From the NCBI RefSeq assembly GCF_019456655.1, contig NZ_CP080332.1:1674001-1738000 (forward strand): a stretch of DNA of 64,000 bases, read 5' to 3'. This DNA comes from Mycolicibacterium diernhoferi. GTDB taxonomy: Bacteria > Actinomycetota > Actinomycetes > Mycobacteriales > Mycobacteriaceae. Of the stretch, positions 2,005-37,896 are shown piece by piece (within the stretch, counting starts at the first letter, position 1; each line of letters begins with the position of its first letter). A program made the position numbers and the translations under genes. The notes below the pieces were generated by a model. That model made no database searches. It worked only from the letters and a program-made list of their open reading frames with translations, and had not been told where the DNA came from.

Positions 2005-2189
2005 GCGAGAACGAGTACAGACTGTTCGTCTGCGTGCAGTGCGGATTCGAGTACGACGAGGCCAAGGGCTGGCCGGAGGACGGGATCGCCCCGGGCACCC
2101 GCTGGGCCGACATCCCCGAGGACTGGAGCTGCCCGGACTGCGGCGCAGCAAAGTCCGACTTCGACATGGTCGAGATCGCCAGGCCGTGA
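2001..2189 (+). CDS. rubB: Rubredoxin, AlkG2-like electron donor to AlkB
   Basis: 62-residue rubredoxin with [18 protein letters not shown] at the N terminus and [15 protein letters not shown] at the C-terminal iron knuckle, without the arginine insertion of the preceding rubredoxin. This is the form expected to pass electrons from a rubredoxin reductase to AlkB. ATG 2001 overlaps the preceding stop by four bases. A reductase gene is not visible nearby, so it must be encoded elsewhere. Corresponds to Rv3250c. Confidence 0.93.
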
Positions 2190-2263
2190 CGGTCGTCTCG
2201 GGCGTCCGGACGGCCCCGCGAGCATCCGCCCCCACGGCGCGGCGAAGTTATAGGGTCGCGGCT

Positions 2264-2896
2264 ATGAGCGGACCCGGACCTCGGCGTACGGCACCACGCG
2301 TGCCGTACGCCGAGGCGTCTCGGGTGCTGCTGCGCGACTCGATCCTGGACGGCATGCGCGAGATGCTGCTGGTGCGGGACTGGTCCTCGATCACCCTCAC
2401 CGATGTGGCCCGAGCGGCCGGGATCAGCCGGCAGACCATCTACAACGAGTTCGGATCGCGGCAGGGACTGGCCGAGGGCTATGCGCTGCGGCTGGCCGAC
2501 CGCCTGGTCGACGCCGTCGACCGGGCGGTCAACAACAACGTCGGGCAGGTCTACGACGCCTTCCTGGAGGGGTTCCGGGCGTTCTTCCTCGAGTCGGCCT
2601 CGGATCCGTTGGTGATCTCGCTGCTCGGCGGCGAGGCCAAACCGGATCTGCTGCAGATCATCACCACCGGCAGCGGCCCGATCATCACGCGCTGCTCGCA
2701 GCGGCTGACCGCGACGTTCCAGGACAGCTGGATGAAGGCCTCCGACGAGGACTCCGGGGTACTGGCCCGCGCCATCGTCCGGCTGGCGATGAGCTACGTC
2801 TCGATGCCCCCGGAAGCCGACCACGATGTGGCCATGGATTTGGCTAGGCTTATGACGCCGTTCGCCGAACGGTACGGTGTCATAGACACCCGGTAG
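2264..2896 (+). CDS. alkX: TetR-family regulator of the alkane operon (AlkX type)
   Basis: 210-residue TetR regulator. The N-terminal helix-turn-helix is recognisable around residues 45-68 (ITLTDVARAAGISRQTIYNEFGSR), followed by an all-helical ligand domain. It is the fourth gene after alkB-rubA-rubB, as in M. tuberculosis (Rv3249c), and probably represses the operon from the palindromes at 488-513, relieved by alkane-derived fatty acids. I chose ATG 2264 by homologue length. An in-frame GTG at 2186, overlapping the rubredoxin stop, would add 26 residues and is an alternative. Its last codons overlap the 5' helix of the candidate riboswitch of ahcY. Confidence 0.88.
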   Translation: MSGPGPRRTAPRVPYAEASRVLLRDSILDGMREMLLVRDWSSITLTDVARAAGISRQTIYNEFGSRQGLAEGYALRLADRLVDAVDRAVNNNVGQVYDAFLEGFRAFFLESASDPLVISLLGGEAKPDLLQIITTGSGPIITRCSQRLTATFQDSWMKASDEDSGVLARAIVRLAMSYVSMPPEADHDVAMDLARLMTPFAERYGVIDTR

Positions 2897-2972
2897 CTGG
2901 CAGAGCGCTGCACAAGCGCCTGTCCCGCGAGCCCGCAGGCCACCGGTGTCGCGTGCGCACACTCGTGCGCTC
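2890..2972 (+). promoter_or_regulatory. Candidate S-adenosylhomocysteine (SAH) riboswitch before ahcY
   Basis: The leader of ahcY carries the invariant-looking core GAGCGCTGCA at 2903-2912, then AGGC at 2937-2940, then GCGCTC at 2967-2972. This is the order found in proteobacterial SAH riboswitches. GAGCGC (2903-2908) can pair with GCGCTC (2967-2972) to form the long-range P4 pseudoknot helix. A P1 helix can form from CCGGT (2890-2894) plus GG (2899-2900) with CCACCGG (2940-2946), leaving a bulge. The region between P1 and P4 can form a small P3 hairpin around 2951-2958. In the known class SAH binding turns expression on, which suits SAH hydrolase. P1 departs from the textbook sequence, so this is a strong candidate, not a certainty. 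Confidence 0.65.
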
Positions 2973-3030
2973 CTAGGCAAAGCCTGTTGAAGGCCTGTTC
3001 GAGAACGATGACTTAAGGGGCCCTATCCAT

Positions 3031-4491
<1,461 letters not shown>

Positions 4492-36980: not shown

Positions 36981-37896
36981 CGGGAGCTCCCACCGCGTCG
37001 GCGATCTGCTCGACGGCCTCGGCGATCTCGGCCGGGCGGGTCTGCCGGTCCGGTACCCAGGCCAGCGCGATCCGCACTGGGGCCCAATTGCTTTCGTCGA
37101 TCGGAATGAGTTTGAACTCCGGTGGCGAGAAGATCCGGCCGATCGCCGACGCCGGCGCGTAGGTGACCACCGCGACCAGATGCCGGTTGAACACCTGGGT
37201 GGCCATCTCCAGCTCACCGCCGAGCTGATTGGTGGTGCGCACGATGCGGTCCACCCCGCGGGCGTGCAGGCTGCGGGTCAGCCCGGCCAGCACCACCGGA
37301 TTCGGCCGCGCGAAGTCGATCACCACGTCCCGGTCCCGCAGCGCCTCGATGCCGACCCGGTCGGCGGCGGCCAGCGGATCGTCGTACCGCACGGCGATGG
37401 CACCCGGATAGCTGGCCACCACCCGGTGGCGCAGTCGTTTGTCCGAGGTCGGCAGGTGGATCAGGCCGATGTCCAGGTGCCCGGACACCAGTTTGGCGGT
37501 CACCTCGGCGGCCGAACCCGGGACGCTGAACTCGGTGGCGGCCGGCAGCGTGCCGACCGCGGTTTCCAGCTTGGCCAGGAAATCCGAGGGTGCATACGCC
37601 GTGGCTCCGATACGGATCGGATTGGCGGACTTGGTGATTCGGGTGGCCAACAAGGCGAACTGGTCGACCCGGGTCAGGATGTCGCGGGCCGGTTCGAGCA
37701 GGGATTCACCGAGCGGGGTGAGGCGCACGTTGTGGTAGTCCCGTTCGAACAGGGCGCCGCCGAGTTCGTTCTCCAGCAACTTGATCTGCTTGCTCAATGG
37801 CGGCGGCGTGATCATCAGCCGGTCGGCGGCGCGCCGGAAGTGCAGTTCTTCGGCGACCGCGACGAAGTACCGGAGTCTGGTGAAGTCGACTTGCAT
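36967..37896 (-). CDS. LysR-type transcriptional regulator
   Basis: 309 residues. The N-terminal winged helix-turn-helix is LRYFVAVAEELHFRRAADRLMITPPPLSKQIKLLENELG, followed by a periplasmic-binding-like effector domain. ATG 37896 (MQVDFTRL) is the standard LTTR start. It lies 82 bases downstream of the CoA-transferase gene on the same strand, an unusual order, because LTTRs are normally divergent. It may respond to an acyl-CoA or acid of the adjacent pathway, which is inference. Confidence 0.9.
   Translation of the reverse strand: MQVDFTRLRYFVAVAEELHFRRAADRLMITPPPLSKQIKLLENELGGALFERDYHNVRLTPLGESLLEPARDILTRVDQFALLATRITKSANPIRIGATAYAPSDFLAKLETAVGTLPAATEFSVPGSAAEVTAKLVSGHLDIGLIHLPTSDKRLRHRVVASYPGAIAVRYDDPLAAADRVGIEALRDRDVVIDFARPNPVVLAGLTRSLHARGVDRIVRTTNQLGGELEMATQVFNRHLVAVVTYAPASAIGRIFSPPEFKLIPIDESNWAPVRIALAWVPDRQTRPAEIAEAVEQIADAVGAPDAAG

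Follow-up and report, generated by a model that had tools for sequence, protein, structure and literature searches.

A lineage-restricted structured leader RNA before ahcY in mycobacteria, outside the SAH riboswitch family RF01057

The leader of ahcY in Mycolicibacterium diernhoferi is a conserved structured RNA standing before a metabolic gene. It is restricted to part of the mycobacteria and lies outside both the S-adenosylhomocysteine (SAH) riboswitch family RF01057 and the other catalogued RNA families. We think it fairly probable that this is a new orphan leader RNA which would be transcribed from a promoter within the 3′ end of the preceding gene, alkX, and would control the translation of ahcY, with a metabolite of the SAH cycle as the likeliest trigger. 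The window analysed here is a 64-kb stretch of DNA (positions 1674001–1738000 of the 6.0-Mb genome), in which the list of open reading frames and general knowledge of the families give what we take to be the order alkB, a rubredoxin gene, alkX and ahcY. For alkX we adopt, as an assumption, the naming of an earlier note made from the bare sequence of this DNA, and for ahcY we presume the same naming together with what is familiar of the family. The context of AlkX in M. tuberculosis is treated in one study (PMC9430723). The features discussed below are collected in Table 1.

Table 1. Features of the ahcY leader and its flanking genes, in window coordinates
Feature	Position	Strand	Basis or remark
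alkX (TetR regulator) ORF	2039..2896	+	Listed from first possible start; 3′ end overlaps P1 and P1b
−10 hexamer TACGGT (putative), 6 nt before P1	2873..2878	+	TANNNT at the same place (±1 nt) in 104/104 leaders
P1 5′ strand GACACC	2885..2890	+	86.2% of cells paired; 3/6 pairs changed on both sides; overlaps last alkX codons
P1b 5′ strand AGCU	2895..2898	+	96.7% of cells paired; begins within alkX stop codon
P2 5′ strand G-g-CAG-a-GCGC	2899..2908	+	98.3% of cells paired
P2 apical part	2909..2915	+	3 to 26 nt in relatives, sequence variable
P2 3′ strand GCGC-CUG-u-C	2916..2924	+	A1 consensus fold, pair counts
CC junction, P3 hairpin GCG-AGCC-CGC (2927–2936) and junction A2937	2925..2937	+	A1 columns 68–80
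P1b 3′ strand GGCC (GGCU in most relatives)	2938..2941	+	A1 consensus fold, pair counts
P1 3′ strand GGTGTC	2945..2950	+	Variants among relatives, pair counts
Local hairpin GCGCAC-ACTC-GTGCGC (2955–2960/2965–2970)	2955..2970	+	Window fold; 3′ arm holds most of the P4 partner proposed in the earlier note
Shine-Dalgarno region AAGGGGCCC	3015..3023	+	Complementary to GAGCCC of P3; relatives mostly GGGGCUC
ahcY (sahH), S-adenosylhomocysteine hydrolase	3031..4491	+	486-aa ORF; directly after the leader

First, the architecture of the RNA emerges from the comparison of related leaders, which were gathered by a core string (at most two mismatches in a 23-mer, followed by a set 20-mer allowing C or U at one position). 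This yielded 104 distinct leaders; ahcY is present in 117 of 118 genus genomes, and at 117 of 117 core-bearing loci a match to the ahcY N-terminal codons lies no more than 300 nt away. From an alignment of 98 distinct segments (hereafter A1), RNAalifold derives a compact three-way junction that occupies 66 nt in the window (2885–2950), and the window's own fold is this consensus junction (z −2.0). The consensus helices read GAYACC/GGYGUC (P1), AGCY/GGCU (P1b), GkCAGnGCGC/GCGCCUGuC (P2) and GCG-AGYC-CGC (P3), joined by the junction bases CC and A. Among relatives, P1 appears as GATACC/GGTATC, GACACC/GGTGTC and GACGCC/GGCGTC, and P2 as GCGC/GUGC, GUGC/GCGC and GCGU/GCGC, while one P1b pair is A-U in 71 of 98 rows, G-C in 13 and an A·C mismatch in a further 13, the window among them. 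Leaders that lack the alkX stop TAG mostly have G at this P1b base and C at its partner. Of the 27 invariant columns of A1, 19 fall inside the collecting block and owe their invariance to the way in which the rows were gathered; the other 8 lie outside it. The stretch from the CC junction to the junction A (2925–2937) falls within that block and is invariant except for one C/U in the loop.

Standard pairs fill 94.8% of the 2050 pair cells of A1, against 28–43% when one strand is slid by 1–3 columns, a control over which a structure derived from A1 itself holds an advantage. Cells changed on both sides number 26, compared with 7.5 in shuffled alignments, and none of 500 shuffles reaches as high a count. 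But 77 of 500 shuffles contain at least as many pairs with double changes (5), and 81 of 500 at least as many further pair types (19). Much of the covariation of P1 consists of G-U steps. For P1 position 3, a tree-based test of independent pairs (47 rows) counted 5 pairs, which is not significant. P3 and part of P2 lie in the row-collecting block, and P3 together with four P2 pairs shows no variation at all; the support for these pairs is the folding and not covariation. When 96 distinct segments are folded alone, P1b, P2 and P3 occur jointly in the lowest-energy fold of 94, with a median folding z of −2.07 (52 below −2, one above 0). Leaders taken in full length, as far as the start codon, fold less cleanly: of the 72 among the 104 whose Shine-Dalgarno sequence could be located automatically, 34 have P2 as well as P3 in their lowest-energy fold. 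A competing hairpin, GCCTG/CAGGC, has 99.6% of its cells paired, with zero covariation, and is mostly inside the row-collecting block; we rejected it. The earlier note had anticipated a structured RNA at this place, controlling ahcY and with its 5′ strand overlapping the alkX stop codon. A three-way junction with covarying outer pairs, whose P1b starts inside that codon, bears out the structure and the overlap, and a regulatory role towards ahcY is probable; the alkX stop TAG is at 2894–2896 and the ahcY ATG at 3031.

Second, the element has a sharply bounded distribution. The ahcY leaders share the block CGCCTGTCCCGCGAGCCCGCAGG, of which M. diernhoferi itself has one exact copy; it occurs with at most two mismatches in 103 of 248 genus genomes, and 91 of the 104 matches listed are exact. 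A covariance model built on A1 (R1) likewise finds 103 of the 248, once each and at 58–89 bits, the next score being 25 bits; under strict filters, and with a model built from the same rows, no intermediate forms appeared among these 248 genomes. Outside the genus, the 20-base core was present with fewer than two mismatches in none of 178 genomes (from an order-level draw of 200), the two-mismatch matches being taken as chance, and R1, again under strict filters, scored nothing above 30 bits in a class-level draw of 296 genomes. R1 matches of 25 bits or less were not treated as real. Eight non-genus matches (L300–L307) were judged by eye to be chance. A match of 19.9 bits on the + strand at 37209–37292 of the window, with a weaker one overlapping it on the − strand, is also taken as chance. 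Elsewhere in the M. diernhoferi genome there are one three-mismatch 23-mer and one two-mismatch 20-mer. None of 37 core-less loci exceeded 10.3 bits with R1; the best match in an element-free leader reached 9.9 bits (L240, E 0.13 over six sources), and we claim no remnant there. No exact viral copy was found. Twenty members of the element had no match in Rfam 15 (best E 1.7, to unrelated families), and a search over the titles and abstracts of open-licence PMC articles found no description of this element. In an ahcY phylogeny built from 77 rows, with 4 loci left out, the unconstrained topology implies 5 changes of presence, but the data do not reject a grouping of all carriers in one clade (p-AU 0.574), and we make no claim as to gain or loss. 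By eye, mycobacterial leaders free of the element (L011, L017, L018, L021, L028, L106, L113 and others) have a different −10-like box and often a Shine-Dalgarno sequence of the AAGGA type.

Third, the sequences flanking the junction suggest how it might be transcribed and read. Considering the spacing of mycobacterial promoters, we infer from the sequence that the 5′ end of the transcript would roughly coincide with the start of P1, some 7 nt past the −10 hexamer. The C-terminus of alkX, recognized by a simple pattern, reads through the hexamer in 86 of the 104 leaders, where its codons could therefore explain TACGGT. The other 18 leaders keep both hexamer and RNA with no alkX upstream, the hexamer being TACGGT in 12, TAGGGT in 3, and TAGAAT, TAGACT and TAAGCT in one each; L005, L086, L098, L153, L169, L209 and L234 are among the leaders so placed. 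A simple sigma-70 scan of 2800–3060 returned no promoter-like site. At the downstream end, 63 of 89 carriers have GGGGCTC at the ahcY start, and the shorter GGGCTC is found there in 87 of 89 carriers as against none of 42 element-free leaders, counting leaders with at least 200 nt upstream and a located start, 14 of the 42 belonging to other genera. The window is one of the two exceptions among the carriers, with GGGCCC. With that GGGCCC and the A·C mismatch in P1b, it represents its family less well than other members do. GGGCUC is the exact complement of the P3 sequence GAGCCC; the two do not covary, so that, with 14 of the 42 element-free leaders from other genera and the rest relatives, the association may reflect descent. 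An element-free leader outside the 42 (L032, Mycobacterium sp. SM1) has, by eye, GGGGCTC just before its ahcY start, possibly as a remnant, possibly because the string has another cause.

How P3 and the Shine-Dalgarno sequence might come together was explored by folding. Forcing their nested pairing costs a median of 4.6 kcal/mol (range 0 to 9.5), and 4 of 72 leaders have it as their best fold. The pyrimidine-rich 5′ strand of P1 can also pair with the Shine-Dalgarno sequence: in 37 of 72 leaders their longest common helix has 6 bp, and the mean is 5.1 as against 4.3 in shuffles, a modest excess. None of the alternative pairings computed for the platform is clearly preferred. There is no intrinsic terminator in 2800–3060, and TTTT stands between core and Shine-Dalgarno sequence in 1 of 72 leaders, which together point to translational control rather than termination. 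The string ATGAYGAA lies in the same interval in 29 of the 72 leaders (L007 and L095 included), opens a tiny frame in some and is absent from the window.

The model that we favour is as follows. A promoter inside the last part of alkX would give rise to a transcript beginning at roughly the first base of P1, the 2885–2950 portion of which would be the aptamer-like part, consisting of P1/P1b, P2 with its bulged base, the mini-hairpin P3, and the CC and A of the junction. Two folds would alternate. One would contain the three-way junction, and in its alternative the Shine-Dalgarno sequence would be paired with GAGCCC of P3, with the pyrimidine-rich 5′ strand of P1, or with both. If pairing of P3 with the Shine-Dalgarno sequence excludes the junction, a ligand would be expected to turn ahcY on, which suits SAH. 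The likeliest trigger may be sought among SAH-cycle metabolites, SAH first, with ahcY being raised as SAH accumulates. On this model the ahcY leader RNA is likely a metabolite riboswitch; switching, its direction and its ligand are parts of the model that we infer. More tentatively, one may envisage a new riboswitch class restricted to part of the mycobacteria, in which a minimal junction would sense SAH or another member of its cycle and switch ahcY translation on, alongside a separate RF01057-like switch at metH in the same cells.

Might the junction be recognized by something other than a metabolite, or by nothing at all? An RNA-binding protein, perhaps AhcY itself, could sit on the junction and block or open the Shine-Dalgarno sequence. 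The invariant junction and P3 loop would suit a protein equally, and a single match in each carrier genome, at the same gene, would suit autoregulation; we nevertheless regard this as unlikely, there being no candidate protein and some genomes having a close AhcY (93% identical in G013) and no element. A static structure that stabilises the RNA or provides ribosome standby without sensing anything would be in keeping with the strong fold of almost all segments, but conserved unpaired bases in junction and loop, along with the matching Shine-Dalgarno sequence, exceed the needs of stability and make it improbable. The conserved C-rich stretch after a stop codon could also belong to a trans-acting small RNA, derived from the alkX 3′ end or from a separate transcript, whose C-rich P3 region would target other Shine-Dalgarno sites. 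We find this very doubtful, for the element is kept with ahcY where alkX is missing upstream (18 leaders), accompanies GGGCTC at the adjoining ahcY start and is followed by no terminator in the window. That the single block of about 20 conserved bases is a DNA operator of a transcription factor, not an RNA, has little probability given that P1 and P1b pairs change jointly, that the P2 tip changes length without disturbing the rest, and that the −10-like hexamer precedes the block.

The earlier note had proposed that this leader is a divergent SAH riboswitch, a family known before ahcY in other bacteria (PMC2864571). The resemblance is real as far as it goes: both are short leader RNAs before ahcY, the natural gene for such a switch, and the window does contain GAGCGC (2903–2908, followed by TGCA), CAGGC with its AGGC at 2937–2940, and GCGCTC (2967–2972), in that order. 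The ahcY RNA is, unlike the P1-P2 plus P4 arrangement of RF01057, a three-way junction with a P3 hairpin. The RF01057 covariance model has no match at 2700–3200 (E ≤ 10), at ahcY in the M. diernhoferi genome (E ≤ 10) or in 20 element-bearing relatives (E ≤ 5), and none of its 74 matches in 60 mycobacterial genomes (E ≤ 0.5) lies at ahcY, positions being compared by eye. All Rfam 15 families together give a single chance snoRNA match at 2700–3200 (E ≤ 10), and the whole 64-kb window has no Rfam match over gathering. The model's core, GCGcUGCAAC ... CCAGGCUCGG, is not kept, since the UGC after GCGC is unconserved among the leaders, 4 of the 104 of which contain GAGCGCTGCA.

The pairings drawn in that note fared unevenly across the related leaders. 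A conserved and covarying outer helix P1 does exist, a few bases away from the one drawn, which is itself not conserved. Its P4, 2903–2908 with 2967–2972, does not coincide with the conserved helices: in the 70 nt that follow P1, 51 of 104 leaders have a full 6-of-6 partner for the GNGCGC strand, against an average of 13 in single-letter shuffles, and 53 lack one. The exact GCGCTC lies downstream in 32 of 104, and an exact partner accompanies 25 of 75 GAGCGC, 8 of 13 GTGCGC and none of 6 GCGCGC strands. In most rows the GCGC of this strand also pairs within P2; in the window fold 2905–2908 pair with 2916–2919, and 2967–2970 fold back on the bases just before them as part of a local hairpin. 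With the strand so employed, and with the RF01057-like element of the genus standing before metH, we give membership of the ahcY leader in RF01057 next to no probability.

That second element is of interest in its own right. The best RF01057 match in the M. diernhoferi genome, at 24.5 bits below the gathering cut-off of 37, spans 3045027–3045113 (L001 1501–1587), directly before metH and 1.4 Mb away. The 74 matches noted above come from 56 of the 60 genus genomes, and none is over the cut-off. Counting best matches, to the exclusion of lower-scoring second ones, a metH N-terminal motif lies within 450 nt at 31 of 31 loci (the M. diernhoferi locus and 30 from the best-scoring genomes), at scores up to 35.3 bits. 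At one of them (L116, 34.5 bits) the sequence agrees with the RF01057 consensus and breaks none of its pairs; the M. diernhoferi element breaks several. Sun et al. 2013 (PMC3766115) report SAH riboswitches from Mycobacteriaceae as well, in passages that leave the gene unspecified. To judge by its sequence, the genus has a divergent SAH-riboswitch-like RNA, and it is at metH instead of ahcY. The GACGCCUUCC strand of the metH element could, by eye, pair with the metH Shine-Dalgarno sequence GGAAGG, which suggests a translational on-switch.

The closest mechanistic parallel to the ahcY RNA may be found among RNAs of the SAM cycle. The SMK box (SAM-III, RF01767) is a three-way junction in which Shine-Dalgarno pairing controls translation; it stands before metK in Lactobacillales, has other conserved letters and contains the Shine-Dalgarno sequence within the junction, unlike the ahcY RNA, whose Shine-Dalgarno sequence is about 65 nt downstream of the junction in the window. 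The RF01767 model matches neither the window (E ≤ 10) nor 20 relatives (E ≤ 5). The SAM-Chlorobi motif (RF01724), described in PMC2864571 as an orphan and a possible leader of metK and ahcY operons, is similarly lineage-restricted, but to the phylum Chlorobi, and the ahcY RNA has no Rfam match. The SAM/SAH riboswitch (RF01727) is an H-type pseudoknot (PMC7367207) located before metK in Rhodobacterales (PMC2864571), and it too is lineage-restricted and belongs to the same pathway, but RF01727 gives no match to the ahcY RNA.

Finally, the proposed reading would, if true, mean that some mycobacteria serve one pathway with two unrelated classes of RNA: at metH a divergent SAH riboswitch, at ahcY a new junction RNA. 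It would add a small aptamer candidate, of 66 nt in the window, and a lineage-restricted RNA that is absent from Rfam 15, and it would provide a case in which the 5′ strand of a regulatory RNA has been carved from the last codons and stop of the neighbouring gene.
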